The translations under genes and the position numbers were made by a program. Under the pieces are notes generated by a model that worked only from the letters and a program-made list of their open reading frames with translations, ran no database searches and was not told the DNA's origin. A stretch of DNA of 64,000 nucleotides from Neolewinella persica DSM 23188 (lineage in GTDB: Bacteria; Bacteroidota; Bacteroidia; Chitinophagales; Saprospiraceae): the NCBI RefSeq assembly GCF_000373105.1, contig NZ_KB890425.1, forward strand, positions 124,001 through 188,000. The letters are read 5' to 3'. Of the stretch, positions 45,321 to 60,201 are shown in pieces; within the stretch, counting starts at the first letter, position 1; every line of letters starts with the position of its first letter.

Positions 45321-46487
45321 ATGAAGTTCACTTTTGTATTTATACTTGCCGTAACCGGTCTTTTGCTCTTCCGTTGCGGAGTACCAACTCCCGATGGTGC
45401 CTCCACCGATGCCATTGAGGTACTGGAAGCCACCCGCAATAAGATGCTGACCACCCCCACCCATCAATATCGATTCACGTCTTTCTGGGATAATCGTTTT
45501 GCCTCATCGACCTATACCGAAACGATGAACATTACGTATTCCTGGTTGCCAGACAGTGATTTAGGCTTTGGTTTCTATGCGGCCGGAAAGGATTCCGACA
45601 TCCTGTACGATGGAAAAGATAAACTGAAAATTGATCACATTAAACGCAAGGTTATCCGGACAACGGCCTCCGAGATCAATAAGGATGCCGCTTATTTCGC
45701 GAATTCGATGTGCTTTCATGGCGACCCTAAAGCTCTGCCGGAGTCTGCGGACGTAGATCGTATCACGGATACCATTATTGCCGGTAAGCCCCTGTTTATG
45801 TACGTAATAACCTTACGCACGCCGTCGGCTGGAACTCCGAGTAAGGAGACTATCGCTACCCGGGAGTATTACCTGGACCCAGAAAATAAGGTGGTGGATC
45901 GGATTCGTAACGTCTCCCAGACTGGAGAAGATACCACCCAGATCATTGATTATGTCTTCATTGATTATGCTTTCTCCGATGATTACCACGTGTTTGGAGC
46001 GGAAGACCGGGTACAATCTCTGGCCTACCGGGAGGTAAGTAAAGCCGTTGACCAGAAAGAAAGGCGGTCAGGCCTCATCCGCCCCGGAGCCCGGCTTCAC
46101 CGGGCAGACTATACGGACATCAACGGTAAGGAGCAATTGATTTATGGTAAGGCGGGTGAAAAGACTGTCGTAATGTTTGGCTTTATCGGCTGCGGCAACT
46201 GTGAGTACGCCTTTAGGGAAATGAAAAAAAAGAAGTTTGCCGTCAGAAGCAACGTAGACCTTGTTTACAGCAGCCCGGTTGACGAGTCTTTTAAGCTGGA
46301 GGGCTATCTGAAGAAAAAAGGATTTCCCTTTACCAGTTTCGATAAGAGCAGCCGGATGAATGATAATTTCAAAGTGGCGGGCTTCCCTACGTTTGTACTG
46401 ATCGATGAGCAGGGTGTTGTAGAGGAGGTAATTGATGGCTACGACCAGGTAGTGGAGGAGATGCTTTTTGTGTCTCGCAGCAATTAA
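45321..46487 (+). CDS. Lipoprotein with thioredoxin-like C-terminal domain
   Basis: 388 residues. The N-terminus MKFTFVFILAVTGLLLFRCG is a lipoprotein signal peptide with a probable lipobox Cys. Residues 30-230 form a beta-rich LolA/DUF2092-like region (MLTTPTHQYRFTSFWDNRF...). The C-terminal about 110 residues are a thioredoxin fold (KTVVMFGFIGCGNCEYAFREM with a CxxC, and VAGFPTFVLIDEQG with the cis-Pro). This is the TlpA-like layout common in Bacteroidota and may act in disulfide or redox chemistry in the periplasm. The gene lies alone between repeats R11 and R12. Confidence 0.8.
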   Translation: MKFTFVFILAVTGLLLFRCGVPTPDGASTDAIEVLEATRNKMLTTPTHQYRFTSFWDNRFASSTYTETMNITYSWLPDSDLGFGFYAAGKDSDILYDGKDKLKIDHIKRKVIRTTASEINKDAAYFANSMCFHGDPKALPESADVDRITDTIIAGKPLFMYVITLRTPSAGTPSKETIATREYYLDPENKVVDRIRNVSQTGEDTTQIIDYVFIDYAFSDDYHVFGAEDRVQSLAYREVSKAVDQKERRSGLIRPGARLHRADYTDINGKEQLIYGKAGEKTVVMFGFIGCGNCEYAFREMKKKKFAVRSNVDLVYSSPVDESFKLEGYLKKKGFPFTSFDKSSRMNDNFKVAGFPTFVLIDEQGVVEEVIDGYDQVVEEMLFVSRSN

Positions 46488-46520
46488 AAAAAGAAGCTTA
46501 GGTTACCCTGCTCCTCTAAG

Positions 46521-46546
46521 CCTCCCCCTGCACCTGCGGCCGCGCC
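46521..46546 (-). repeat. Dispersed G-rich repeat, copy R12
   Basis: Minus-strand GGCGCGGCCGCAGGTGCAGG, then GGGAGGC. The match to other copies extends further as TTAGAGGAGCAGGG (46507-46520). Confidence 0.8.
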
Positions 46547-46714
46547 AGAAAGACCATAAAACCATTAACCTAGCTCTAATTTTTACGACCCGCAAACCTA
46601 CAGCCCGGTTCTCCGTTATAAAGGGGAGGTGATATTTTTTCCGCTGAATTTATCGCCAAAACCTATATTTAGTGGGTAACGTAACCTTAATCAGCGAAAA
46701 TTCGCTAACCGAGC

Positions 46715-47773
46715 ATGGCAACAGCAACAAAAAAGACCGCATCGCGGACAAAGAAAACTACGACCGCTAAGAAAAACGGTACGGCTAAAGGATTGAAATA
46801 CAGCGCGGAACAGTATCTCGAGTGGTACACACTGATGCTTCGTATCCGTAAATTCGAGGAGCGTGCGTTGATGGCCTACGGTCAGCAAAAGATTCGTGGG
46901 TTCTGTCACGTGTACATCGGCCAGGAGGCAGTTGCTGCCGGAATGGAGAGCGCAATCACTAAAGATGACGGTATCGTGACGGCTTACCGCCAGCACGGTA
47001 CGGCCCTCGGCCGGGGCGTAACCATGAACCAGGCTATGGCGGAATTGTACGGTAAAGAAACCGGTATCGTAAAGGGCAAAGGTGGCTCTATGCACTTCTT
47101 CAGTAAGGAGAACAAGTACTTCGGTGGTAATGGTATTGTTGGTGCCCAGATTCCGATCGGAACGGGTATCGCCATGGCCGAGCAGTACCGGGGCACCAAA
47201 AATCTTTGTGTAACGATGTTTGGCGATGGTGCCAGCCGCCAGGGTGCACTCTGGGAAAGCTGGAACATGGCCATGACCTGGAAGATTCCCGTTCTCTACG
47301 TTTGTGAAAACAACGGCTACGCTATGGGAACCTCCGTGGAACGGACCAGTAACGTAACGGATCTGAGCCAACTTGGCGCCAGCTTCAACATGCCCAGCAA
47401 AAGTGTGGATGGGATGGACCCGGTTGCCGTACACGAAGCGTTCAGTGAAGCCGCCGAACACATCCGCTCCGGCAAAGGACCGTTCTACCTTGAGGTAAAG
47501 ACTTACCGCTATAAAGGTCACTCTGTATCCGATCCGGCCAAATACCGTGAAAAAACCGAGTTGCAGGAATACCAGGAACGTGATCCGATTAAAACGACTG
47601 AAAAGCTCATCCTAGATAATGGGTTGGCTACTGAAGCGGACATCAAGGAGATCAAAGACAGCGTGAAGGCAGAGGTGGCTGCGGCTGCTAAGTTTGCGGA
47701 ATCAAGTAGCTTCCCCGATGGATCTACCCTCTACACCGACAACTACTCTGAGCCATATCCTTTCCTTACCTAA
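46715..47773 (+). CDS. pdhA: Pyruvate dehydrogenase E1 component, alpha subunit
   Basis: Catalyses thiamine-diphosphate-dependent decarboxylation of pyruvate with the E1 beta subunit. 352 residues. The TPP motif runs from GDGASRQGALWESWN to ENNGYAMGT. The family blocks RIRKFEERALMAYGQQKIRGFCH and GSMHFFSKENKYFGGNGIVGAQ are present, and YRYKGHSVSDPAKYR holds the regulatory-loop region. The first about 26 residues are Lys/Thr/Ala-rich (MATATKKTASRTKKTTTAKK...) and not part of the usual fold. E1 beta and E2 are not in the window. Confidence 0.95.
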   Translation: MATATKKTASRTKKTTTAKKNGTAKGLKYSAEQYLEWYTLMLRIRKFEERALMAYGQQKIRGFCHVYIGQEAVAAGMESAITKDDGIVTAYRQHGTALGRGVTMNQAMAELYGKETGIVKGKGGSMHFFSKENKYFGGNGIVGAQIPIGTGIAMAEQYRGTKNLCVTMFGDGASRQGALWESWNMAMTWKIPVLYVCENNGYAMGTSVERTSNVTDLSQLGASFNMPSKSVDGMDPVAVHEAFSEAAEHIRSGKGPFYLEVKTYRYKGHSVSDPAKYREKTELQEYQERDPIKTTEKLILDNGLATEADIKEIKDSVKAEVAAAAKFAESSSFPDGSTLYTDNYSEPYPFLT

Positions 47774-47796
47774 GATTTAGGAGCCAGGAAATAGAA

Positions 47797-47832
47797 ACCC
47801 CACTTTCGCTGATGCGGAGGTGGGGTTTTTTG
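47797..47832 (+). terminator. pdhA terminator
   Basis: ACCCCAC (47797-47803) pairs with GTGGGGT (47820-47826), followed by a run of T. Confidence 0.85.
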
Positions 47833-47833
47833 T

Positions 47834-48010
47834 CGGGTTGTCCAGTTGTCCAGTTGTCGGTCGTCGAGTTATCAAGTTTTTATGTTGACTTGTCTTCAAA
47901 GTACAGGTGGCCCCTGACAACGGGACAACCCGACAACCGATAACGGGACAACCTGACAACCGATAACTGGACAACCGACAACCCGATAATTGGATAACTG
48001 GACTACCTGA
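47834..48010. repeat. Octamer-like tandem repeats in inverted arms
   Basis: The left part repeats TTGTCNNG (GTTGTCCA, GTTGTCCA, GTTGTCGG). The right part (about 47917-48010) repeats GAYAACYN roughly every 8 bp (GACAACGG, GACAACCC, GACAACCG, GACAACCT and so on). The two parts are complementary and could fold. There is no gene between the pdhA terminator and the next promoter. Confidence 0.7.
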
Positions 48011-48032
48011 TACACATTATCCCGACTTTCCT

Positions 48033-48040
48033 TATCTTTG
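48033..48040 (+). promoter_or_regulatory. Probable -7 box of the TPR membrane-protein gene
   Basis: TATCTTTG lies 50 bp before the ATG at 48091. No clear -33 element is seen; the upstream DNA is the tandem-repeat tract. Confidence 0.5.
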
Positions 48041-48090
48041 CGCTCGCTTTTGCGGCTCCGCAGCAATGGAGTCGGCTAAATCAAAGGAAA

Positions 48091-48846
48091 ATGGCAAAGA
48101 AGAATAACATCGGTCGTCGCCCACAGGGCACACCAAGCACAGGTCGCAATCAAGGCACCTCCGCTCCGGTACTTGAAGGTGATGATACCCTCGTTGATAT
48201 TGTTGAAGTCCGTGACCAGGGCCTCGACTTTTTTGAAAAAAATCGTAATACTATCGTCTACGGTGCAATTCTTGTAGCGCTGCTTATTGCGGGCTACTTC
48301 GTATACCAGACTTTCGTCGCCCTCCCCGCTGAAAAGGCAGCTATGGCTGAAATGCAGCAGGCACAGGTACAATTCGAGCGCGACAGCTTTAACCTGGCCC
48401 TGGCCAGCCCCGGAAACGGTGGGCTTGGCTTCATTGAAATCGTAGACCAGTACGGCGGCACCAAGGCCGGTAACCTGGCTAACTACTACGCTGCGGTATC
48501 CTACCTCAATATCGGCCAGTACGAAGCGGCACTCGATTACGCGCAGTCTTTTGATGCTGACGGCACGCTGCTTCCAGCAATGAAGTACGGCATCATCGGA
48601 GACGCGCAAAGCGAACTTGGGAATATGGAAGACGCCATGAGCGCTTACCGTAGTGCCATCGACGCCGCTGGCGAAAACTTCGTGACCGGTGGTTACTATC
48701 TCAACAAACTCGGTCAGCTGCTCCGCAGCCAGGGAAAGAATGAAGAAGCACTTGCTGCCTTCCGTCGTCTGAAGACCGACTTCGGGCAAAGCCCCGAAGC
48801 TGCCAGCGCTGATAAGTTCATCTCCATGCTGGAGATGGCGCAGTAA
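48091..48846 (+). CDS. Inner-membrane TPR protein resembling YfgM
   Basis: 251 residues. A cytosolic N-terminus is followed by one membrane segment near residues 55-78 (TIVYGAILVALLIAGYFVYQTFVAL). The periplasmic part has TPR-like pairs (NLANYYAAVSYLNIGQYEAALDYAQSF, AQSELGNMEDAMSAYRSAIDAA, QGKNEEALAAFRRLKTDF). Topology and layout match the YfgM/TPR-21 group, associated with the SecYEG translocon and periplasmic chaperones in enterobacteria. The same role here is inferred. Confidence 0.8.
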   Translation: MAKKNNIGRRPQGTPSTGRNQGTSAPVLEGDDTLVDIVEVRDQGLDFFEKNRNTIVYGAILVALLIAGYFVYQTFVALPAEKAAMAEMQQAQVQFERDSFNLALASPGNGGLGFIEIVDQYGGTKAGNLANYYAAVSYLNIGQYEAALDYAQSFDADGTLLPAMKYGIIGDAQSELGNMEDAMSAYRSAIDAAGENFVTGGYYLNKLGQLLRSQGKNEEALAAFRRLKTDFGQSPEAASADKFISMLEMAQ

Positions 48847-48849
48847 TCA

Positions 48850-49012
48850 GGTTGCAGGTTGCAGGTTGCAGGTTACAAGTTGCAAGTTGTAGGTTGCAAG
48901 TTGTACAATAAAAATGCCCGATCGACATCCAGTGTCGATCGGGCTTTCTGTTTTTTCTGCAACCTGCAACCTGCAACCTGCAACTTACAACCTGCAACCT
49001 GCAACCTGCAAG
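48850..49012. repeat. Heptamer tandem repeats as inverted arms around a terminator
   Basis: The left arm has about eight GCAGGTT-like heptamers (CAGGTTG, CAGGTTG, CAGGTTA, CAAGTTG...). The right arm (about 48958-49012) has the complementary AACCTGC heptamers. Between them is a separate terminator at 48916-48956. The tract starts 3 bp after a stop codon. Confidence 0.8.
48916..48956 (+). terminator. Terminator of the TPR membrane-protein gene
   Basis: GCCCGATCGAC (48916-48926) and GTCGATCGGGC (48934-48944) form a perfect 11-bp stem, followed by TTTCTGTTTTTT. Confidence 0.88.
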
Positions 49013-49026
49013 CGGCTGCGCCGCTT

Positions 49027-49623
49027 CTACTGCACCCGCACCTTATACTGGAAGGTATTGCCGACAGACTTGCCATCGAAGTGAACGGTGATCAGGTAGC
49101 CCTGCACGTTGGTCAGGGTGTGGCTACGGGTTTCCCGCTTATTACTTTTCTGGGAGTTGATCTCATTGATCCAACCCGTCTTCAGGTTGGTGTAGCGACC
49201 GTTCCGGTCGACCTTACAAACGACGTAACTCACCTTACCTTTTCCGTCGAGCTCTTTGATGTCGATGGTCAGGGTGTTTTTGTTGGAAGGAACGGCAGAA
49301 ATGTACATTCTGCCGCCGGTGCTTACGATCGTCCCTTCGTCGTAGGAGCCGAAATCAAGCCGACGAGGGCCGATCGTCGCCCAGCTGCGGGAACGGGAAT
49401 TGTAGTAACTGTTCATCTCCGTTTTGAGGGTGCCGTACATCGCGGCGTTATTCATACACTTATTGAAACTGCCCGGGCTACTGATGGTGCAGCCCTGAGC
49501 TGTTAGCACGCTGGCGATTTTACCGTTGAGGTCAGAAACTATCGAAGGAGCAGATTTACAACTTTGAGCAGTCATGGTGCCAAGACAAAAGAAGAAAAGG
49601 AAGGAAGAAATAAGGTGTCTCAT
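49027..49623 (-). CDS. Secreted protein of unknown function
   Basis: 198 residues from ATG 49623 (MRHLISSFLFFFCLGTMTAQ signal peptide); a TTG two codons earlier is less likely. The mature part has three Cys near the N-terminus and one later, and a beta-rich C-terminal half (GRMYISAVPSNKNTLTIDIKELDGKGKVSYVVCKV...GYLITVHFDGKSVGNTFQYKVRVQ). I do not recognise a family. Confidence 0.65.
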   Translation of the reverse strand: MRHLISSFLFFFCLGTMTAQSCKSAPSIVSDLNGKIASVLTAQGCTISSPGSFNKCMNNAAMYGTLKTEMNSYYNSRSRSWATIGPRRLDFGSYDEGTIVSTGGRMYISAVPSNKNTLTIDIKELDGKGKVSYVVCKVDRNGRYTNLKTGWINEINSQKSNKRETRSHTLTNVQGYLITVHFDGKSVGNTFQYKVRVQ

Positions 49624-49629
49624 ATTCAA

Positions 49630-50247
49630 TATTTTAGATGTAATTCGAGAGGGTAGCTATTTATCAGGCCCCGTTTTTGTTGCTGCCGGTTATTGATCCG
49701 CGGCGTGGCCACATCGTCCAGTAGGGCTTCGAACCAGCTTTGTTTGGTTTGCTTTCTGGCAGGTGGGGTCTGGTGGTTTCTATTGCAGAGATTCCCGGCC
49801 TTTTGCTTAAGGCACTTCATCAGTTAGAAATGCTTTGGGCGGTGCCTGACACGGCGAGGCTGCAGACGAGCAGGAAGGAAAAAGGATACGAGTAATCATC
49901 GTGGGCTGAGGTTTCGGGTATGCCGTTACCGAAGCGTTGGAGATGATGGAAATTCGGGGTAGGGACGGGCTATCCGTAGAAATTCCACACAACGCCGGAA
50001 TTTTTTTTTAAATTCGTAGCTGACATCTTCTTTATAGACACTGACTTCAAAGGCTATTCAAGGATTAGGTCACCGATCGGGGAAGCGAGGATTTACGGCT
50101 GGTTAAAGCCGGAAAGCATTCTTTTTCAATCAGGACACTTTTACTGTGAAAGCTTTTTTCTCGGCGAATTGTGCCGACATCCCTGGTGGTTCGTATTGGT
50201 AGTCGCTGATTTCTGAGGCGAACCCCTGTAGTACGGAATTTCAAACT
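49630..50247. other. 618-bp intergenic region upstream of the sigma-factor operon
   Basis: No supported gene is seen. Minus-strand frames of 61-64 codons exist (for example KQTKQSWFEALLDDVATPRINN near 49700), but none has a convincing start or recognisable domain. No strong -7 box was found before the sigma factor at 50248. That would fit control by an alternative sigma factor, but this is weak negative evidence. Confidence 0.4.
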
Positions 50248-50805
50248 ATGCAATCAGCCACGGATCTGGAGCTGGTCGCCGCTTTTTGCAAACAGGACGA
50301 AAAGCAGGCACTCGGCATCCTTTATCAACGGTACGGGCACCTGGTGGTGGGTCTTTGCCTGGACTACCTCAAGGACCGCGAAGCGGCCCGCGATGCCACT
50401 ATGGACATTTTTGAAAAGGTGACCCTTAAGGTTTGCAACCAGCCCATTGACACCTTCCGGGCTTGGCTCTTTTACACCAGCAGGAACTACTGTATCGACG
50501 TGTTGCGCAAAAAAATGCGCGAGCGGGAGCACCGGACAAAAATTTCTTCTCTGGAAGGTGTGGAATATGAATCCGACGAGCGTCCTCTTAGCGAAGCCCG
50601 GTTGGATCATCTGCCCGCAGCCTTGAATAACCTACCGGAGCAGCAGGCGCGATGCGTCAGGTTGTTTTACCTGCGGGGACATTCTTATGCTGCGGTTTGT
50701 GAGAAAACCGGCTACGACCTTAAACAAGTGAAAAGTTACCTGCAGAATGGACGTCGTAATCTCCGAATCCAACTTCAAAAATTAGCGCATGAGCAATCCG
50801 AATAA
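50248..50805 (+). CDS. ECF-type RNA polymerase sigma factor
   Basis: 185 residues. Sigma region 2 is ALGILYQRYGHLVVGLCLDYLKDREAARDATMDIFEKV with FRAWLFYTSRNYCIDVLRKK. Region 4 is LPEQQARCVRLFYLRGHSYAAVCEKTGYDLKQVKSYLQNGRRNLR, a helix-turn-helix for the -35 element. The spacing and length are those of group 4 (ECF) factors. The gene overlaps the next, membrane-bound TPR gene by 17 bp, which suggests a sigma/anti-sigma pair. It heads a four-gene operon. Confidence 0.93.
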   Translation: MQSATDLELVAAFCKQDEKQALGILYQRYGHLVVGLCLDYLKDREAARDATMDIFEKVTLKVCNQPIDTFRAWLFYTSRNYCIDVLRKKMREREHRTKISSLEGVEYESDERPLSEARLDHLPAALNNLPEQQARCVRLFYLRGHSYAAVCEKTGYDLKQVKSYLQNGRRNLRIQLQKLAHEQSE

Positions 50806-51613
50806 GCAAGACCGTGAAGGATGGCTGCGGGGCGACGAGCCCGATGCGCAAGCTGACGAATTTGCCCGCCACGCAGCGCAAGGGCGCAAAGAGTTGGGCT
50901 CAGAAGCCGAAGCAAGTGACCTGCTGAATGAACTGGATGGCTTACTGGCCGAACGGTTTGGAGGGACAGAAGTGGGCAAACAAGCCACCTCGCCCACATC
51001 ATCACAAGGAGGCGGGGGCGCAGGTGCAGCGGAAGAGGCAAAGAGCAAGCCCCCGGCGAGCGTTCGTCGCCTCAGGAGATTGTACGCAGCGGCAGCTGCC
51101 ATTCTCCTCCTGGTTGCGGCCGGTAGTTGGTGGTTGACGCAAACGGTAACTTATGACGCAAACGAAGTTTTTGCCGAGACTTTTACCCCCTACGCTAATG
51201 AGCTGAGCGGTCGTACAATGGGAGACGAAACCACCACCATCGGTGGCCAGCTGGGCGAAGCCTTACTCGCTTATGATCGCCGGGACTACCCGGCGGCGGT
51301 CTCCGCCTTCGAGGCGCACTTCCTTGCTCCTCCAACTTCTATTGCACCCGCGACCGCGCCCCAAATCCAACTCTACTACGGCATCAGCCTGCTGGGGGCC
51401 GGGCAACCCAAAACAGCCCTTCCCGTATTAGATGCCCTGCGGACAAATGCGACTTACGGCGACCCCGCCGAGTGGTATCATGCGCTGGCCCTTCTCCGCG
51501 ACGGACAAACGGCCGCCGCCCGATCTTCCCTTCAGAATATTGTTAAAGACACGAATTCAGCTTTTAGAGCCAAGGCTACTGCCTTGCTCCCCTCCTTTCC
51601 CTCTGAACGCTAA
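50789..51613 (+). CDS. Single-pass membrane TPR protein, probable anti-sigma factor
   Basis: 274 residues. The N-terminal about 90 residues are soluble and charged and carry no zinc anti-sigma (HxxxCxxC) motif. A membrane segment follows (LYAAAAAILLLVAAGSWWLTQTV, about 92-114). The outer part has TPR-like pairs (GEALLAYDRRDYPAAVSAFEAHF, LYYGISLLGAGQPKTALPVLDAL, WYHALALLRDGQTAAARSSLQNI). The overlap with the sigma gene suggests its cytosolic part binds that sigma. Two dispersed-repeat copies lie in frame, one on each side of the membrane segment, encoding GGGGAGAAEEA and IAPATAPQ. Confidence 0.75.
   Translation: MSNPNKQDREGWLRGDEPDAQADEFARHAAQGRKELGSEAEASDLLNELDGLLAERFGGTEVGKQATSPTSSQGGGGAGAAEEAKSKPPASVRRLRRLYAAAAAILLLVAAGSWWLTQTVTYDANEVFAETFTPYANELSGRTMGDETTTIGGQLGEALLAYDRRDYPAAVSAFEAHFLAPPTSIAPATAPQIQLYYGISLLGAGQPKTALPVLDALRTNATYGDPAEWYHALALLRDGQTAAARSSLQNIVKDTNSAFRAKATALLPSFPSER
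51011..51038 (+). repeat. Dispersed G-rich repeat, copy R13, in coding sequence
   Basis: GGCGGGGGCGCAGGTGCAGC plus GGAAGAGG, read in frame as GGGAGAAEE. Confidence 0.75.
51323..51362 (-). repeat. Dispersed G-rich repeat, copy R14, in coding sequence
   Basis: The minus-strand core is GGCGCGGTCGCGGGTGCAAT. The match extends as AGAAGTTGGAGGAGCAAG, like R7 and R12. It encodes TSIAPATAPQ and is the inverted partner of R13. Confidence 0.75.
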
Positions 51614-51627
51614 AAACATCCCTGACT

Positions 51628-53037
51628 ATGCGCTTTTCCCTCATCTTCTTATTCGCCTGCTTCTCCTGCCTGAGCCTGCTGGCCCAGTCTGACGGTCCTG
51701 ATCCCATTGAGGATCAATACGTAGAAATCTATAACGCCTACAAGCAAAAGCTGACCCAACTCGGCTACCCCGTTGGTCGTGCAGGCAATGCGGCCTATGT
51801 ACCCGGTCAGTATTCCATCCAGTACGAAGGGGCTAATGCAGCAAGCGACTTTGCTTCAGATCTGGCTAAGCTTAAGCGAGATTTCGGCAGCAAGAACGTT
51901 AAAGTAATTGGCGAGTGTGGTTGCTCTGGCCAGTTCAAGATATATAACCTGGAATTCACCAATATTGGCGGTGAAGAGCGAGGGAAAAAAGGAAAGCAAC
52001 AAGTGGCTCAGTCTATCGGGCAGGAAGAAGTCGAACCGAATTTCTACGTAGTACCCGAGTTGGAGCAACTTAAGAAGAATGCTCCCTATAATACCCTGCC
52101 ACCTAACTTTGCGGTTATCCCAAGTGGTAAACCAGCTAAACCCGTTACCATTGCCCTGCTTGATACCGGTATCGATCCCTACTTCCAGCATCCACAGGTA
52201 ACCAAGGGTATGGCCCCGCTTTACCTGTGGGAGAACCCTTTTCCCAATAATCCGAAAGACGAATTTTGCTTTGATGACGACCTGATTGGCTGGGACTTTA
52301 TCAACGATGATAACGCTCCGCTCGACGATCACTCTCACGGCACCCACGTAGCCAGCCGGATTGCACAACAACTACAGAATAATGCCCCCGACGTAAATTA
52401 CCGTTTCATGGCCCTCAAGATGCTGGACCAGAACGGCGTAGGGACTACCTTCCACGCCTCCTGTGCGGTTGCTTATGCCGGTTACCACAAGGCGGATGTC
52501 ATCAATGCCAGTTGGGGTTTCTATGGCGAACCGGACGCCATCTTACGTAAAGCTTTTCGCTATGCTCAGAACCAGGGAGTTGCTACGATGAATTCTGCAG
52601 GTAATTACCGTCGGAATTTGAGTGTCACCCGTCATTACCCGAGTGAATTTGCCCTGGAGGCTAATCCGATTCGCAGCATTTTCTTTACCTCCGCTACCAG
52701 AACCGGTACCCAACTTTGGCCGCTGACAAACTTCCGGGCCGAGCCCTTGGCGCCAGCCAGTCATTTCATGGCTGCTCCAGGAGGTAACTTACTCGGGTTT
52801 ATCCCTCACTACTTCGGTGTACCCGGTAATGTGGCCAGAAAAAGTGGCACTTCGATCGCCACACCCTTTGCTTCCGCTTTAGCTGCTCATTATAAGCACC
52901 TGCACCCTAATGCAGGCCCGGTTGCGTTGCGAAACACCTTGGTTGGTACCATCGAATCACAGGGCCTGGGCGGTACGATAAATTATCTTGGGCAGCAGGT
53001 ACCTTATAAAGTCTTTAACTGGGTTATCCTGCCTTAG
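51628..53037 (+). CDS. Secreted subtilisin-family (S8) serine protease
   Basis: 469 residues with a signal peptide (MRFSLIFLFACFSCLSLLAQ) and a propeptide-like region. The catalytic triad is readable: Asp179 in LLDTGID, His237 in HSHGTHVAS and Ser409 in SGTSIATPFASA. The oxyanion Asn lies in VINASWGF. It begins 14 bp after the membrane TPR gene and precedes the CHAT gene. In this operon it could process the probable anti-sigma factor or a partner in the periplasm, which is inference from context. Confidence 0.92.
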   Translation: MRFSLIFLFACFSCLSLLAQSDGPDPIEDQYVEIYNAYKQKLTQLGYPVGRAGNAAYVPGQYSIQYEGANAASDFASDLAKLKRDFGSKNVKVIGECGCSGQFKIYNLEFTNIGGEERGKKGKQQVAQSIGQEEVEPNFYVVPELEQLKKNAPYNTLPPNFAVIPSGKPAKPVTIALLDTGIDPYFQHPQVTKGMAPLYLWENPFPNNPKDEFCFDDDLIGWDFINDDNAPLDDHSHGTHVASRIAQQLQNNAPDVNYRFMALKMLDQNGVGTTFHASCAVAYAGYHKADVINASWGFYGEPDAILRKAFRYAQNQGVATMNSAGNYRRNLSVTRHYPSEFALEANPIRSIFFTSATRTGTQLWPLTNFRAEPLAPASHFMAAPGGNLLGFIPHYFGVPGNVARKSGTSIATPFASALAAHYKHLHPNAGPVALRNTLVGTIESQGLGGTINYLGQQVPYKVFNWVILP

Positions 53038-53165
53038 GGGAGCAACTTGTTCCTAAAGGGATAGTCGTATCGCCTCTGGCAGGCCAATATCGGTACACTA
53101 TCTGCGGCGTCTTTCTGTAAGCTTTCCTATCTTCCCCATACCGGAGAACCGGGAAACTACTGCTT

Positions 53166-55862
53166 ATGAAGGCCTACTTTCACATCCTCTGCTGCCTGAT
53201 TGTATGGATTGGCCCGGCAACTGCCGGGCTATCCGCACAATCCGGATGGCTGGCGCATCCGGAGCTTCGGGCAGCTTATGATTCCCTGGTTCAGCTGGCA
53301 GAAACCTATCCCGATGATTCGATTGCCCGAAAATCATGGTTGCTGCACCAATCGGGCCTCCGGGCCTCCGGTTCCAGAGAATTCACAGATGCCATTGGGG
53401 TTACCCAACGGGCACTTGACTTGCGGATGAGTCAGGAAGACAACTTCGAAATCGAGGTGGTGCTTTCTGCCTTTAATCTGGGGACCTATTATAATATGCG
53501 GGAAGAGTATCAGGAAGCCCTGGATCACTTTGGCATGGTACTCAACCGGGCCCCTCACCGTAAGGAAGGGGTAGCCCACTACCAGTGTGGTATCGTTTAC
53601 GGTAAGATGGGAGAATTGGTTGCTTCGGGGCAGGCATTTTCCAGGGCGGCTGAGTTGCCTCCCTTCAAGGAGGAAGGGATCAACCGGGCCTACCTCTGGC
53701 AACAAATGGCCCTGGTTGAATTGTCGAAGTTGAGCGTAGCGGGCGGACTCGCGGCCATTCCTAAATTTCAGCGGGCGTTAGAATATTTTGTCCGGGAGGA
53801 ATACTGGTATTCCGAGATGGAAACCAGGAGCTTGTTGGGTTGGGCTTATACGGAGGCAGGACAATACGAAAACGCGATCAAAGAGCTGACGAGTGCCAGA
53901 GAACTGGCCCTGGAATTGGAGATCGATGATACCGACCTGTCTACCATTTACAGCAACCTGGGCCTGGCCTATCGGCGTTCGGGCCGGCCAAAGGAAGCGC
54001 TGGCGCAATACGAAAAAGCCCTGGAGGTAGAGGCAACTTATGATGACCCGGGAGTCCCAAATATTTCGATAGCCACCTATTTCGATAATATTGCAACGGT
54101 ATACCTCGAAGCCGGTCAACCAGATTCCGCCTTACTGTATACCCAGCGTGCACTGGCCAGAACCGTGTCAGGGTTCACGCCTGCTGATAGCGATGAACTG
54201 CCGCTCCTTAATGACATGACGGGATCCAGACAAAGTCTGGTAACTTTCCTCCAGGACAAAGCCCTTGCCCAAGTCGCAATGGCCCGTAATGGTGCTACCG
54301 AAAACCTTGAGTCCTCCCTGGCCACCTACCGGCTGGCCGATGAACTGCTGGACCTCATGCGGCAAGATCAACTCCTGGAAGACACCCGGACCTTTTGGCG
54401 GGCGGATGCCCGTACGCTTTATGAGCGCGCCATCGATGCGGCGGTAGCGGCGGGAGATCCGGTGTCAGCTTTTTATTTTCTGGAGAAAGCCCGTGCCCGT
54501 CTATTGCTGGATGAACTTAGCGCCGATCGCGCTGGTGAAAATCTGCCGGAGTTCGTCAGGGATCGACTTGATGCCGCTGCGCGGCAAACCCGCCTGTCTT
54601 CGAATGACCCCGTGGAGCTACAGCAATTTCGCAGATTACAAGACAGCATCTTTACGGCGTTCCCCCGGTATGCGGAAGCCCGACTGGGGGCAGCACCGCC
54701 CGACCCGGCCCGATTGGCGGAGATCCTGGGGGCTGACCGTACACTGGTGGAGTACTTCGTTACCGAAAAGCTTACTCTGGCCCTCCGCTGGTCCCAAAAA
54801 CAGGGACTTGAATTTTTGGAGCTGCCACCTCCGGATCGTTGGCGGGACCGTTTGCAGGCTTACCGCCAATCCCTTGTGGATCCTAACGAAGAAGTGTCGG
54901 CAACCGAAGCTCTTTATCTCTACTCCCAGTTAGTTGCTCCCCTAAAACTGGAGCCCGGTGATGCACTTACGATTGTGCCAGATGGAGACCTTTACTTATT
55001 ACCTTTTGGTGCCTTACTGACCGACGCCCCCGCTACGGACGAGGCCGGTTACCAGCACTGGCCCTGGTTGGCGGCAACTCATGACGTCCATTACGCCTTC
55101 TCGGTTCAGTTGCTTGATTTTGCCCGTAACCGCCGCGGCCGGGGGAATGGCCGGGCCCTGGCCCTCGCGCCGGTGGCACGGTTGCGGCAAGATGGCCCCC
55201 TGGACCCGAAACTGGAGTTACCGGCCACCTTACGCACCGTCCGGCACATCGCCAGCCTTTTTCCTGCCGATACCCTGATCAACGATCAGGCCAGTCCCGG
55301 GGCATTCCGACGGAAGGCTGATGCCTACAGCCTGATACACCTTGGTACCCATGCTTACCTCGATCAAGGGGGGAGTTTTCTTCTGCACGGTCAACCCGGA
55401 GAGCAGCATTATGCGATGAATAACCTGGCCGATCATAATCTCCAGGCCGATCTTGTGGTGATGGGGGCCTGCGAAACCGGACTGGGCAAACAACTGGTCG
55501 GGGAGGGCGTGGCCAGTCTGGGGCGGGGCTTTGCCCGGCGCGGAGCGCCGGCGCTGGTGATGAGCCTGTGGTCGATCGATGATGCTACAACGGCAGAACT
55601 ACTTAACGCTACCTACGATGGATTGGCTGCGGCCTCCGGACCAGCGGCGGCGCTCTATACCGCCGGGAATAGTTACCGGACCAACGTTACCAATCCTCGA
55701 TTTGGCCACCCGTATTACTGGGCAGGGCTGGTATACTATGGGCCGGAGATGCCGCTGGAAATGGGGGCTACCGGGAGTTATTTACGCTTATGGTTATTGG
55801 CTGGCTTTGGGTTGGTTATTGGCTGTTGGTGGGTGACGAGGGGGGTGTTGAAGGCACTTTAG
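53166..55862 (+). CDS. Exported TPR-CHAT caspase-like protease with C-terminal membrane anchor
   Basis: 898 residues. A signal peptide (MKAYFHILCCLIVWIGPATAGLSAQ) is followed by at least six TPRs through about residue 400 (YENAIKELTSARELALEL, SNLGLAYRRSGRPKEALAQYEKALEVEATY). A CHAT domain then has DGDLYLLPFGALL, catalytic His729 in IHLGTHAYLD and Cys769 in VVMGACETGLG, plus VASLGRGFARRGAPALVMSLWSIDD. A hydrophobic tail (LRLWLLAGFGLVIGCWWVT) ends the protein. The CHAT domain would face the periplasm. CHAT proteases are caspase relatives; its target is unknown. Confidence 0.92.
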   Translation: MKAYFHILCCLIVWIGPATAGLSAQSGWLAHPELRAAYDSLVQLAETYPDDSIARKSWLLHQSGLRASGSREFTDAIGVTQRALDLRMSQEDNFEIEVVLSAFNLGTYYNMREEYQEALDHFGMVLNRAPHRKEGVAHYQCGIVYGKMGELVASGQAFSRAAELPPFKEEGINRAYLWQQMALVELSKLSVAGGLAAIPKFQRALEYFVREEYWYSEMETRSLLGWAYTEAGQYENAIKELTSARELALELEIDDTDLSTIYSNLGLAYRRSGRPKEALAQYEKALEVEATYDDPGVPNISIATYFDNIATVYLEAGQPDSALLYTQRALARTVSGFTPADSDELPLLNDMTGSRQSLVTFLQDKALAQVAMARNGATENLESSLATYRLADELLDLMRQDQLLEDTRTFWRADARTLYERAIDAAVAAGDPVSAFYFLEKARARLLLDELSADRAGENLPEFVRDRLDAAARQTRLSSNDPVELQQFRRLQDSIFTAFPRYAEARLGAAPPDPARLAEILGADRTLVEYFVTEKLTLALRWSQKQGLEFLELPPPDRWRDRLQAYRQSLVDPNEEVSATEALYLYSQLVAPLKLEPGDALTIVPDGDLYLLPFGALLTDAPATDEAGYQHWPWLAATHDVHYAFSVQLLDFARNRRGRGNGRALALAPVARLRQDGPLDPKLELPATLRTVRHIASLFPADTLINDQASPGAFRRKADAYSLIHLGTHAYLDQGGSFLLHGQPGEQHYAMNNLADHNLQADLVVMGACETGLGKQLVGEGVASLGRGFARRGAPALVMSLWSIDDATTAELLNATYDGLAAASGPAAALYTAGNSYRTNVTNPRFGHPYYWAGLVYYGPEMPLEMGATGSYLRLWLLAGFGLVIGCWWVTRGVLKAL

Positions 55863-55899
55863 TGATCGTTGCTCCATCCTGCTATGTTTTACAAGCTTT

Positions 55900-55955
55900 G
55901 TTCCCCGGCACTTGTGCCGGTTTATAAGAGAGGACCGGCACAAGTGCCGGGGAAC
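55900..55955. terminator. Long perfect hairpin between convergent genes
   Basis: The arms at 55900-55921 and 55934-55955 are perfect 22-bp inverted repeats around a 12-nt loop. Each arm contains its own palindrome CCGGCACTTGTGCCGG. It has no T-run but lies exactly between two gene ends. Confidence 0.6.
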
Positions 55956-55973
55956 GAGGCTCTCCAAAAGCAC

Positions 55974-56537
55974 TCAACGCAAACGACGAATCACCCGCCA
56001 GTAATTAGCGTGCTCCAGCCGCAATACCCTTTCTGCAATCTTTTCGGGCGTATCCTCCGGGTCCAACCGGACAGCAGCCTGGAAAACGGTGTTCCCTTCA
56101 TCGTATTTTTCGTTGACGTAATGAATGGTAATTCCACTCTCCGTTTCTCCGTTGGCCTTTACGGCCCGGTGAACGTTGGCACCGTACATCCCTTTCCCGC
56201 CGTAGTCGGGCAAGAGGGCCGGGTGAATGTTGAGTATCCGGTTGGGAAACGCCCGGACCAAATAAGCGGGGACAAGCCACAGGAAACCGGCCAGCGCGAT
56301 GAGGTCGACGTTGAAATGCTTCAGATCGTCCAGTAACGCCTCGGAGTTGTTGAAGCCATCGCGTTTGAGGACAAGGGTGGGAACGTTACGTTCGGCGGCC
56401 ATCAGCAGCGCGCCGGCATTTGCTTTATTGCTGACCAGTAAGACGACCTCTACGCCATCTTCCGGATGTGCCTGGAAGCGATCGATGATGGTGCGTGCGT
56501 TGGAACCGGTTCCGGAAACGAAGAGGGCGAGTTTCAT
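55974..56537 (-). CDS. purN: Phosphoribosylglycinamide formyltransferase (GART)
   Basis: Transfers a formyl group from 10-formyl-THF to GAR in purine synthesis. 187 residues, full family length. The N-terminal LFVSGTGSNARTIID binds phosphoribose. FLWLVPAYLVRAFPNRILNIHPALLPDYGGKGMYG contains the catalytic Asn-His region, and GITIHYVNEKYDEGNTVFQ holds the catalytic Asp. An AGTCAG-type octamer tract (56538-56580) directly precedes the ATG. A decayed partial copy lies at 62529-62907. Confidence 0.96.
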   Translation of the reverse strand: MKLALFVSGTGSNARTIIDRFQAHPEDGVEVVLLVSNKANAGALLMAAERNVPTLVLKRDGFNNSEALLDDLKHFNVDLIALAGFLWLVPAYLVRAFPNRILNIHPALLPDYGGKGMYGANVHRAVKANGETESGITIHYVNEKYDEGNTVFQAAVRLDPEDTPEKIAERVLRLEHANYWRVIRRLR

Positions 56538-56642
56538 AGTCAGAGCGTCAGATAGTCAGGGAGGCAGCGCGTCAGGGGCCGGGATTGTTTTTCGGAACCT
56601 AAGCGTGGTACGAAGGTAAGTTGTTCCTTGCTATCGGTTTTT

Positions 56643-56663
56643 GGCGCGGGCGCGGGTGCAAGG
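56643..56663 (+). repeat. Dispersed G-rich repeat, copy R15
   Basis: GGCGCGGGCGCGGGTGCAAG. No inward-facing partner is seen before the window ends. Confidence 0.75.
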
Positions 56664-56715
56664 ATGTGGTTTTGTTCAGCCATTAGTTTGTACCTTTTAT
56701 AATTTTTCGCAGGAC

Positions 56716-57255
56716 CTAAGTTTTAAAGAAAAAGCCTATTCCAATACTCGGGATAATCGGCCAACTTAGGTCGAAATTAAAGCACCAAGTACATGATGGT
56801 AATGGTTTTTTTATTATTGACTTGCTGCTCATCTCATGAAGAATTCCAAATTCGATCTGAAAGCCGGTTTTATCCGAAATATTTATTTCTCTACCGATCC
56901 GTGTATTGAAGTGTAAGTATTTGTTTATTTTATATTCATCTTCGTCTCGAAGATAATTCAACCCAATCTTTCCATACCAAGGGCGTCTGGTGGACAATTT
57001 GGAAGGTCTTCCAAAGTGGTAATAAACGTCACTTGAAATAGATATAGAACTTTCATCAATTGCAGGAAATGAACCAATACTAGACCCTATTTGAAACTGG
57101 TTAATTTGATACCGTACACCAACATTTAATAACTCTGGTATGCCAACTCCAGTCGTGATATTAAAATCCTTCTGTGCAGAGGCTTGATGTAAAGTGCCGA
57201 ATAAAAAGATAATTACTATGAAAATATAAAATGGTGATTTCACTACGTCTTTCAT
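56716..57255 (-). CDS. Low-GC secreted protein, probable small beta-barrel
   Basis: 179 residues with a signal peptide (VKSPFYIFIVIIFLFGTLHQASA). Alternating strands (DFNITTGVGIPELLNVGVRYQINQFQIGSSIGSF, SSDVYYHFGRP, WYGKIGLNYL) end in IGIGFFFKT, typical of a small outer-membrane barrel. Its base composition is AT-rich compared with purN. Its function is unknown. Confidence 0.7.
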   Translation of the reverse strand: MKDVVKSPFYIFIVIIFLFGTLHQASAQKDFNITTGVGIPELLNVGVRYQINQFQIGSSIGSFPAIDESSISISSDVYYHFGRPSKLSTRRPWYGKIGLNYLRDEDEYKINKYLHFNTRIGREINISDKTGFQIEFGILHEMSSKSIIKKPLPSCTWCFNFDLSWPIIPSIGIGFFFKT

Positions 57256-57378
57256 ATCTTTTATATTTAGGTGGTTTTGAAATGAATATGTTGGAATGAT
57301 TCACAACGATTCGTCCAGCCGAAAGCCACCCAACTGGGGCCTTCAGAGAGCCCGGAAGTGCTAGAGGGTACCTTGTTT

Positions 57379-59910
57379 TTATTGCACTAAAAACTTACGA
57401 ACGCTACGTGCTGTGCCATCATCTAATTGAATGAAATAGCTCCCTTTTTTCAACGAAGCAATGTTCACTGAAAAGATCTGTTGACCAACAGCGGAACGTA
57501 GCTGCTGCTTCAACAGGCGTCCATATAAATCAAATACCTTTATGGTTACAGATCCACTTCCACCAGAATGGTACCTGATGTTCAAGTTGTCCGCTTTTAT
57601 AGGATTGGGATAAAGAGTGAATTCAAAGCTATTTGCGCTAACCAAATTGTCCCTTGAAGACGTCAAGCCATCGTTGGTGTACAGTTTCGCAATTTTCACA
57701 CCGAAGCCTTTCTCTCCTGTTATCAAAACGTCGTTATCCCCGTCCCCGTCAATATCCGAAAAGGCCACCGAACTAGCGACCAGGCCATCGAATGGGGTGC
57801 CCGCCAATTCCGTAAAATTACCACCTACGTTAGTATATAACTTTGTAATTCGCTCAGAAGAGACGCTCAGCCCGGTTATCAAAACGTCGTTATCGCCGTC
57901 CCCGTCCACATCTGAAAAGGCCACCGAACTTAAGAATACACCTTCAAGAGGGGTGTCTGCTACTTCCGTGAAGCCACCCTCGATGTTGGTGTACAGCTTA
58001 GTAATAGGGGCGAATGAACCTTTATTACCCGTGACCAGCAGGTCTTGATCACCGTCTCCGTCCACGTCCGAAAAAGCCACTGATCCATACGCCACGCCAT
58101 CGAATGGAGTACCCGTAACTTCGGTGAAGCGCCCCTCAGCATTAGTGTATAGTTTCGCAACTGGCTCGTCTGAACTATTCTTGCCCGTGATCAACACATC
58201 CTGGTCCCCATCGCCGTCTACGTCCGCAAAAGCCACTGAGCCTGACTCCACACCCTCAAAGGGAGTACTTGCCACTTCCGTAAAGCTGCCTCTATCGTTG
58301 GCGTAGAGTTTGGTGATGGGTTCGGAGGAAATGTTCCGTCCCGTAATCAGCACATCGCTGTCTCCATCACCGTCAACGTCCGAAAAGGCCACTGAGCTAT
58401 ACCCAACGCCCTCAAAGGGGGTACCTACCGCTTCGGTAAAGCGCCCCTCAGTATTGATGTATAATTTCGCAATAATATCGAATGCTTCTTTATACCCCGT
58501 AATCAGCACGTCGTTGTCACCGTCATCGTCAACATCGGAAAAAGCCACCGAACTCCACATAACACCGTCAAAGGGCGTATCCACAACTTCTGTAAAATTG
58601 CCGTCTACATTAGTGTACAGCTTCGCAATTCGCTCGTCTGAACCATTCACACCTGTGATTAGCACATCCTTGTCCCCATCGTCGTCTACATCCGCAAAAG
58701 TCACCGAACCTGACGTCACACCATCAAAAGGGGTGCCCGCAGCTGCCATAAAGCTCCCCTCAGTATTAGTATACAGTTTCGCAATTCGCTCGTCTAAACC
58801 ATTCCAACCTGTGATCAATACGTCTTCGTCCCCGTCGCTGTCAACATCTGAGAAGGCTACTGAACTAAGCCATACTCCCTCGAAAGGGGTATCCATAACT
58901 TTCGTAAAACTGCCCTCAGCGTTGGTGTACAGCTTCGCAATTCGCTCACCTGAGACATTGTTCAGTCCTGTGATCAGCACATCCTGATCACCATCGTTGT
59001 CTACGTCTGCAAAAGCAATAGAACTCCATATCACTCCGTCAAAGGGGGTGCCCGCAACTTCTGTGAAACTGCCCCCTAAGTTGGTGTACAGCTTCGTAAT
59101 TCGCTCGTCTGAGCCGTTCGCACCCGCGATTAGCAGGTCTTGGTCACCATCGTTGTCTATGTCCGCAAAAGCAACAGCACCTGCTCTCACTCCCATAAAA
59201 GGAGTACCCTCAACTTCCGTGAAGCTCCCCCCAGCGTTGGTGTACAGTTTCGCAATTCGCTCTATTGAACTATTCAGACCAGTGATTAGTAGGTCCTGGT
59301 CGCCATCGTCGTCTACATCCGCAAAAGCAACAGCACTTATGTTCACCCCTTCGAAGGGGGTGCTAACTGCTTCCGTAAAGGTCCCTCCATCATTAGTATA
59401 TAGTTTCGCAATTCGCTCTATTGAGCCATTCATTCCCGTGATCAGCACATCACTATCCCCATCGTCGTCTACGTCAGCAAAAGCAATAGAACCACCTGCC
59501 ACGCCTTCAAAAGGGGTGCCGGCAACTTCCGTAAAACTTCCACTATCATTAGTATATAGTTTAGTAATAGGTTCGTCTAAACCGTTCCTACCCGTGATCA
59601 GCACATCGCTATCCCCGTCGTCGTCTACATCAGCAAAAGCAATAGAACCATCCGCCACGCCTTCAAAAGGGGTGCCGGCCACTTCGGTGAAACGGCCCTT
59701 CGTGTTAATGTACAGTTTTGAAATAGGCTCAGAAGCGTTTTTTCCCCCTGTGATCAGTACGTCCTGATCACCATCACCGTCTATGTCCGAAAATGCCACT
59801 GAACTAAATGCAACACCATCGAAGGGAAAGGCCCTTGGCACTTCAGTAAACATTTGGGCCGAAAGTAATTGCCCAAAAAAGAAGAGTGTAAAAAATAGTA
59901 TGTTTTTCAT
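57379..59910 (-). CDS. T9SS-secreted protein of fourteen FG-GAP/VCBS repeats
   Basis: 843 residues from ATG 59910 (signal peptide MKNILFFTLFFFGQLLSAQ); the frame is open to 60003. Fourteen near-identical repeats of about 52 residues follow. Each has the pattern FTEVxGTPFxGVxxxSVAFxDVDxDGDxDVLITG...AKLYTN, where the DxDxDGDxD loop should bind Ca2+. The C-terminus is a type A sorting domain (FTLYPNPIKADNLNIRY...GSYFIQL...KFLVQ). It probably forms a surface beta-propeller or superhelix used in binding or adhesion. Confidence 0.92.
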   Translation of the reverse strand: MKNILFFTLFFFGQLLSAQMFTEVPRAFPFDGVAFSSVAFSDIDGDGDQDVLITGGKNASEPISKLYINTKGRFTEVAGTPFEGVADGSIAFADVDDDGDSDVLITGRNGLDEPITKLYTNDSGSFTEVAGTPFEGVAGGSIAFADVDDDGDSDVLITGMNGSIERIAKLYTNDGGTFTEAVSTPFEGVNISAVAFADVDDDGDQDLLITGLNSSIERIAKLYTNAGGSFTEVEGTPFMGVRAGAVAFADIDNDGDQDLLIAGANGSDERITKLYTNLGGSFTEVAGTPFDGVIWSSIAFADVDNDGDQDVLITGLNNVSGERIAKLYTNAEGSFTKVMDTPFEGVWLSSVAFSDVDSDGDEDVLITGWNGLDERIAKLYTNTEGSFMAAAGTPFDGVTSGSVTFADVDDDGDKDVLITGVNGSDERIAKLYTNVDGNFTEVVDTPFDGVMWSSVAFSDVDDDGDNDVLITGYKEAFDIIAKLYINTEGRFTEAVGTPFEGVGYSSVAFSDVDGDGDSDVLITGRNISSEPITKLYANDRGSFTEVASTPFEGVESGSVAFADVDGDGDQDVLITGKNSSDEPVAKLYTNAEGRFTEVTGTPFDGVAYGSVAFSDVDGDGDQDLLVTGNKGSFAPITKLYTNIEGGFTEVADTPLEGVFLSSVAFSDVDGDGDNDVLITGLSVSSERITKLYTNVGGNFTELAGTPFDGLVASSVAFSDIDGDGDNDVLITGEKGFGVKIAKLYTNDGLTSSRDNLVSANSFEFTLYPNPIKADNLNIRYHSGGSGSVTIKVFDLYGRLLKQQLRSAVGQQIFSVNIASLKKGSYFIQLDDGTARSVRKFLVQ

Positions 59911-60201
59911 CTTGTTTGATTTTTGGTATGCTAATCGAGTTGGTTCTTTATTTGGTGGCTGCCTACCTACCGGATGGAGGGGATGGCACGCACTTGAGGG
60001 CATGGGTTTTATAATGAAATGAATTAGTCAATAAGTAGTACCGGAGACCATTAAGGTCATTCCCTTTTTTGTTCTAAGCAATGACTTTTAGCACTGATGA
60101 AAATGATACTTATCAAAAAGGATAAGTTTATGAACATTAGGTTCGGCGTGAAGTGCTTTGTCTTCTATGCCCATTATGGGCAAGTGCTTTTAATTGGATA
60201 C

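Follow-up and report, generated by a model that had tools for sequence, protein, structure and literature searches.

What two exported proteases are doing beside an extracytoplasmic function (ECF) sigma factor is the question raised by a four-gene locus of Neolewinella persica DSM 23188. The locus lies in a 64,000 nucleotide (nt) stretch of contig NZ_KB890425.1 (positions 124,001 to 188,000), which was analysed as a whole and is referred to here as the window. Its genes encode the sigma factor, a transmembrane (TM) protein with a tetratricopeptide repeat (TPR) domain, designated TM-TPR, an S8 subtilisin and a TPR-CHAT protease. An earlier interpretation made from the DNA letters (the sequence-only reading) had proposed that the two proteases release the sigma factor in a cascade resembling that of craspase, a type III-E system of the clustered regularly interspaced short palindromic repeats (CRISPR) class. 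Our analysis found that the module of sigma, anti-sigma-like and protease genes is real, widespread and conserved. The best explanation overall appears to be an envelope-signalling module in which the proteases stand on the input side and release the sigma factor, a reading to which we give a little more credence than doubt.

Gene order and conservation

All four genes were on the + strand. The first (50248–50805) encoded an ECF sigma factor of 185 amino acids with Pfam matches to Sigma70_r2 (4.9e-9) and r4_2 (1e-9), both above the cut-off, and its profile also matched ECF structures. It was followed by the genes for the anti-sigma-like TM-TPR (274 amino acids; 50789–51613), the exported S8 subtilisin (469 amino acids; 51628–53037) and the TPR-CHAT protease (898 amino acids; 53166–55862). 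The sigma and TM-TPR genes overlapped by 17 nt, and gaps of 14 nt and 128 nt separated TM-TPR from S8 and S8 from TPR-CHAT respectively; the number, order, position and tight spacing of the genes agreed with the sequence-only reading. No Rfam match was above threshold within 48800–56600, and scans for sigma-70 promoters and terminators gave matches that were not above chance level.

The window was compared with 19 further genomes of the same genus, six of which carried sigma and TPR-CHAT orthologues on one contig and 13 of which lacked the sigma factor. Gene order and orientation were identical in all seven orthologous operons, that of the window included. Identity of the six orthologous operons to the window was 68–86% for the sigma factor, 50–61% for TM-TPR, 51–72% for S8 and 50–56% for TPR-CHAT (64–74% in the CHAT domain), so that the sigma factor evolves more slowly than the sensing parts. 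Relatives carrying the operon included Neolewinella lacunae (L105) and an uncultured Lewinella (L104).

A wider sample was picked by likeness to the window TPR-CHAT alone. Of the 62 TPR-CHAT matches that ranked best outside the host genome, 60 were used, the contig-edge fragments G037:C234 and G026:C576 being left out; removal of the six orthologues then gave 54 loci from 22 genomes. An ECF sigma factor was located within 5 kb of TPR-CHAT in 34 of these loci, against 3.15 +/- 1.7 expected from each genome's own number of sigma matches (binomial p ~1e-28, which serves as a guide only because the loci are related). Sigma factor and TM-TPR were both within 5 kb in 30/54, and 18 of the 22 genomes had at least one sigma-linked TPR-CHAT locus. 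The arrangements varied between one operon, divergent and convergent, with sigma and CHAT on opposite strands in 24/34 linked loci.

Phylum-wide, 80 named loci were examined, being the best 80 of at least 503 matches to a profile for which mostly sigma-linked TPR-CHATs had been used; they partly overlap the 54, have no null expectation and speak to breadth only. A sigma factor was present within 5 kb in 54 of the 80, and TM-TPR within 6 kb as well in 52. Co-conservation of the genes, on which the sequence-only reading had staked itself, was thus seen in the seven operons and again in the 34/54 and 54/80 loci with a sigma factor. That reading had looked to Saprospiria for it, and the conservation was indeed found there but was not restricted to them: the sigma/TM-TPR/CHAT link extended to Flavobacteriaceae and Cytophagales (Aquimarina, Kordia, Tenacibaculum, Roseivirga and a Cytophagales metagenome-assembled genome) and recurred within the host genome. 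Counted conversely, a CHAT match was within 10 kb of 63 of 133 TM-TPR matches, among the matches listed, against 4.6 expected, a figure biased by the construction of the TM-TPR profile (A1) from CHAT loci.

Within the 7.08 Mb host genome, which has a large number of both families (16 CHAT and 52 ECF sigma matches), eight co-directional sigma/TM-TPR pairs were identified. A CHAT match was within 10 kb of seven of these eight pairs compared to none of the remaining 44 sigma matches (Fisher test). Six further sigma factors were followed by a protein that matched only the N-terminal/TM half of the TM-TPR profile (E 2.7e-9 to 0.005), which is what one would expect if that half binds the sigma factor; with these six added, 7/14 instead of 7/8 pairs were near CHAT.

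The anti-sigma-like protein, the proteases and their relatives

An AlphaFold2 model of TM-TPR showed a cytosolic three-helix N-terminus, a single TM segment at residues ~94–118 and a periplasmic TPR domain. Its mean predicted local distance difference test (pLDDT) score was 78; residues 61–87, just before the TM segment, were modelled poorly and the TPR domain confidently. Alignments of the family revealed an N-terminal I..YL.G.L...E...FE pattern, often with a basic stretch, then one TM segment and a C-terminal TPR domain. Pfam returned weak TPR matches only for this gene. In fold searches with the model, the TPR domain was most like the TPRs of YbgF, BamD and the SycD/IpgC chaperones; for the putative anti-sigma N-terminus Foldseek and VIA-align listed no fold match, their matches being to the TPR part only, and this absence is not evidence. 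The NCBIfam anti-sigma factor model NF052375 was matched by 24 of 44 TM-TPR relatives at E<=0.01, and the NCBIfam 'putative anti-sigmaE protein' model by 8 of the 44 at the same threshold. In 41 of 47 sigma matches in CHAT loci, the next gene on the same strand encoded a protein of <340 amino acids with a TM segment. The window gene has the layout of a membrane anti-sigma factor, in that it overlaps the sigma gene and encodes N-terminal helices followed by a TM segment. Position, topology and family likeness together suggest that it encodes an anti-sigma factor.

The window S8 matched Peptidase_S8 in Pfam at 1.5e-29, and its catalytic triad (Asp179/His237/Ser409) was intact, as the sequence-only reading had stated for the active sites of both proteases. 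For other loci, S8 was counted by a catalytic-domain profile, and 'directly before CHAT' was defined as on the same strand and <=350 nt upstream. The Asp-His-Ser triad was intact in all 46 S8 domains found in this position elsewhere (16/16 and 30/30 in the two samples), and 10/10 of the proteins tested exceeded the Pfam S8 cut-off. An S8 was encoded within 5 kb of CHAT in 17/54 and 40/80 loci. Higher counts (31/54 and 50/80 within 5 kb; 19/54) were discarded because the first profile had absorbed sorting tails of the type IX secretion system (T9SS), and a recount by motif filter was discarded as too strict. The host genome encoded five CHAT loci with an adjoining, Pfam-confirmed S8, and a sigma factor was present at all five. 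A paralogous module (L016; G000:C17:50000-66000) encoded an extra secreted DUF4347 protein of 838 amino acids with a T9SS tail (3338–5854) before its S8 and CHAT genes.

The window TPR-CHAT consisted of an N-terminal signal peptide, a TPR superhelix, a CHAT domain at residues ~585–859 (Pfam CHAT, 8.6e-44) with intact His729 and Cys769, and a C-terminal helix (871–897) that reads as a TM segment. The catalytic His and Cys were kept in all 72 TPR-CHATs aligned. Simple hydropathy analysis of the same 72 proteins showed an N-terminal hydrophobic segment in 55 and a C-terminal TM segment in 53, which supports the periplasmic location that had been predicted for CHAT; the protein is probably anchored in the inner membrane via its C-terminus. 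Modelling of TPR-CHAT gave a pLDDT of 88 and a predicted template modelling score of 0.84. The best structural match of this model in VIA-align was Csx29 (8EEY chain B; Z 32.4, 581 residues, root-mean-square deviation (rmsd) 5.6, 12% identity), followed by separases and then by DdvA (8ROT; Z 23.2, 539 residues, rmsd 16.4) and gingipain R. A CHAT-domain profile searched against the PDB at E<=0.01 matched craspase TPR-CHATs and DdvA only (DdvA, E 8.5e-5); a PDB search with the CHAT domain as a single sequence returned nothing relevant.

The likeness to craspase that the sequence-only reading had drawn was upheld by the match to Csx29, but DdvA is the nearer precedent, being a TM anti-sigma factor with a TPR-CHAT part. 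Craspase TPR-CHAT is not known to carry an export signal or a TM segment, whereas the window TPR-CHAT has both. Craspase consists of Cas7-11, the TPR-CHAT Csx29, Csx30 and CASP-sigma (PMC10028731), and it resembles the module in encoding a TPR-CHAT protease together with an ECF sigma factor and its inhibitor. It differs in being RNA-guided, with Cas7-11, Csx30 and Csx31, whereas the module TPR-CHAT is exported and membrane-anchored. In line with the claim that Cas genes are absent, PADLOC found no Cas match among the four module proteins and seven neighbours (11 proteins, the rest of the genome not being searched for Cas genes), and 34000–64000 contained no CRISPR-like repeats. The four module proteins matched generic subtilase, IetS and TPR models only, the seven neighbours (45321 to 60003) matched none, and the locus was not assigned to any PADLOC anti-phage defence system.

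DdvA is the anti-sigma factor of the ECF sigma factor DdvS in Myxococcus xanthus, and its inactivation leaves DdvS active; the signal for DdvS/DdvA was reported as unknown in 2015 (PMC4374960). DdvS-DdvA (PDB 8ROT, 8RW5) shares with the module an ECF sigma factor and a TM anti-sigma factor with a TPR-CHAT part. The latter two are a single polypeptide in DdvA, whereas here TM-TPR and TPR-CHAT are encoded by separate genes, with a subtilisin added in some loci. As DdvA already joins TPR-CHAT to a TM anti-sigma factor, the combination is known and the split form is a variant of it. The promoter predicted below is new, and no account of a non-CRISPR split TPR-CHAT/sigma module was found in the open-access literature, as represented mostly by titles and the starts of abstracts.

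The candidate proteases of the module, a CHAT cysteine protease and a subtilisin, differ in family from DegS and PrsW, the site-1 proteases of the RseA and RsiW systems. The regulated proteolysis of RseA and of RsiW, to which the craspase paper refers (PMC10028731), is otherwise alike in having a TM anti-sigma factor, a cytosolic sigma-binding part and an outside input. Class I anti-sigma factors (ASDIs) are similar as well, with a helical N-terminus, a TM segment in many and a gene adjoining that of the ECF sigma factor; they are reported to adjoin only 6% of Bacteroidetes ECFs (PMC7406223). The module adds to these few a widespread sigma/TM-TPR family, often accompanied by a caspase-like protease, and this family may include part of the anti-sigma factors that the ASDI survey missed.

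A predicted promoter and its candidate regulon

Alignment of the regions upstream of the sigma gene in the seven operons revealed one conserved element, at 49960–49989 in the window. On the - strand it read TRTGGRWW-N14-CGTCCCTA, a predicted ECF promoter directed away from the sigma gene and at the exported genes that diverge from it. The element was kept beside the operon in 7/7 orthologues and was the only such site in the 64-kb window; no second copy was present before sigma, S8 or CHAT. An initial + strand reading of the element, as autoregulation of the window sigma factor, was rejected since the element is promoter-like on the - strand, toward the exported genes. In the direction of sigma, no match above the 95% background level was found in the seven loci. 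The lack of such a promoter before S8 and CHAT would place the proteases on the input side and not among the regulon products.

Exact TRTGGRWW-N14-CGTCCCTA sites numbered 24 in the seven sigma-bearing genomes compared to none in the 13 genomes of the genus that lack the sigma factor. With <=1 mismatch, there were 37 sites in the bearers and 3 in the 13 non-bearers, in which a reversed control gave 9; two of the 13 one-mismatch sites fell inside the sigma gene. Only sites with 0–1 mismatches were used, as no excess over the reversed control was left at <=2 mismatches. A spacing control with the + strand form in 2.92 Mb of loci produced 12 matches at the true spacing, accounted for by the seven loci, further copies of two of these and a pair of sites within the sigma gene, against 0–2 at 11 other spacings. 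In a tree of PdhA (one gene, with some weak nodes) the bearers did not form one clade. G007, which has no sigma factor and no promoter site, was nested among them, in a group with G000, G013 and G003 (support 0.999). We infer that sigma factors of the window type read this promoter.

Outside the operon, 13 of 17 exact sites were followed by an open reading frame of >=100 amino acids that started 16–101 nt downstream (10 of them at 16–21 nt), and all 13 frames had a signal-peptide-like start as judged by eye. The other four sites (G002:C55:40183, G014:C91:124640, G017:C110 and G017:C112) had no suitable gene start. A T9SS sorting domain scored above the NCBIfam cut-off in 6/6 large target proteins tested, five of which follow exact sites; two large target proteins are BNR-repeat proteins. 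The host's own site in L217 (G000:C13:294000-307000) preceded the gene for a large secreted protein; that gene is interrupted by a stretch of N.

In the other sigma-bearing genomes, the divergent genes flanking the operon encoded a 133-amino-acid exported family, an LTXXQ (Spy/CpxP-like) protein and a protein of ~200 amino acids. The LTXXQ identity comes from an intact relative with a Pfam match just above the cut-off. In the window, tblastn located the 133-aa-family and LTXXQ genes as remnants on the - strand (49671–49894); both are broken there and intact beside several orthologous operons. They were followed by a gene for an exported protein of ~198 amino acids (49027–49623, - strand), a probable regulon member with relatives next to the operon in further sigma-bearing genomes. 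In six genomes that lack the operon, the 4.9–19.5 kb around PdhA contained PdhA in 6/6 and the next gene in 4/6, and neither a module gene nor the 200-amino-acid gene was found in these segments.

A different element was observed in divergent loci (among L108–L180), mostly of Flavobacteriaceae. There, GTTACCC was present within ~350 nt upstream of the sigma gene, reading toward it, in 22 of 28 loci, often with GTTC 16–17 nt before it; within 400 nt it preceded 0/16 S8 and 0/31 CHAT reading frames. GTTACCC seems to be another ECF-like promoter, one that serves a different sigma lineage.

Proposed mechanism and rival explanations

From these features we infer a scheme in which the cytosolic N-terminal part of TM-TPR would hold the ECF sigma factor and its periplasmic TPR domain would report on the periplasm. 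On a signal, the membrane-anchored TPR-CHAT, in some loci together with the subtilisin, would cut or displace the TM-TPR anti-sigma factor. The released sigma factor would then fire TRTGGRWW-N14-CGTCCCTA promoters and so lead to the production of small exported proteins, the LTXXQ/Spy-like protein and T9SS surface proteins.

Several observations weigh against this scheme. The match of the window TM-TPR itself to NF052375 was weak (17.3 bits, the cut-off being 100) and covered residues 84–166, which contain the TM segment and not the sigma-binding part. It is common in the genus for a sigma/TM-TPR pair to lack CHAT, so that this type of anti-sigma factor extends beyond the CHAT module, and 20 of the 54 TPR-CHAT loci had no sigma factor within 5 kb; each half can thus do without the other. 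Just 16/54 and 30/80 loci had a true S8 directly before CHAT, which makes the subtilisin optional and the least constant part of the module. The four-gene order thus holds in the seven operons of one genus, as the sequence-only reading had expected, but not throughout the wider loci, where S8 is often absent. A T9SS tail scored above the cut-off in three of four tested S8 paralogues, which would therefore end up outside the periplasm; no such tail is present in the window S8. A candidate cut motif in the juxtamembrane segment of TM-TPR, LY..YF.PY...R, was dropped, since it also occurs in TM-TPR proteins without CHAT and is hence not a CHAT-specific cut site.

Part of this evidence would suit an explanation in which S8 and TPR-CHAT are effectors made along with the sigma factor, as surface, defence or cell-death proteases, and TM-TPR senses alone or with other partners. 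The pairs without CHAT and the T9SS tails on several S8 paralogues fit it, as do the export of the predicted regulon members and the opposite strands of sigma and CHAT in most linked loci. It accords poorly with the finding that in the window neither sigma nor S8 nor CHAT is preceded by the sigma-linked promoter, and with the divergent loci, where GTTACCC precedes the sigma gene but none of the S8 or CHAT frames. CHAT is, moreover, membrane-tethered beside the anti-sigma factor, and the PADLOC matches were to generic component models. We regard effector proteases as possible but unlikely.

TPR-CHAT could instead regulate the anti-sigma factor through binding, in the manner of DdvA, with the protease acting on itself or on another target. 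DdvA, an anti-sigma factor with a TPR-CHAT part, speaks for such a role, as does the resemblance of the TPR domain of TM-TPR to peptide-binding TPRs, among others. The retention of His and Cys in every TPR-CHAT aligned is not expected of a pure scaffold, and regulation through binding seems to us less probable still. That unrelated genes lie together by chance or in a loose neighbourhood might be suspected from the numerous CHAT and ECF sigma matches in the host genome, but it is already contradicted by the 34/54 loci against 3.15 expected and by the gene order conserved in seven genomes, and can be given hardly any weight.

Release of the sigma factor by proteases on the input side is the explanation that we prefer, and the predicted promoter and regulon for one family member make a direct reporter test possible. 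A bolder proposal, which we put forward tentatively and consider rather doubtful, is that the control of ECF sigma factors by TPR-CHAT represents an ancient envelope-signalling scheme that is independent of CRISPR. The split module and the fused DdvA would be living forms of it, and craspase would have derived its Csx29/Csx30/CASP-sigma arm by swapping the envelope for RNA-guided input. With the module, craspase gains a CRISPR-free comparison by which the origin of its sigma arm can be tested.

Two further features were recorded in the vicinity of the locus. A short tandem CAACCTG repeat (48960–49011) is located between a TPR gene and the exported-protein gene. Additionally, 57379–60003 on the - strand encodes a secreted protein of 874 amino acids with many similar repeats, which we take from their appearance to be of the FG-GAP/VCBS type.

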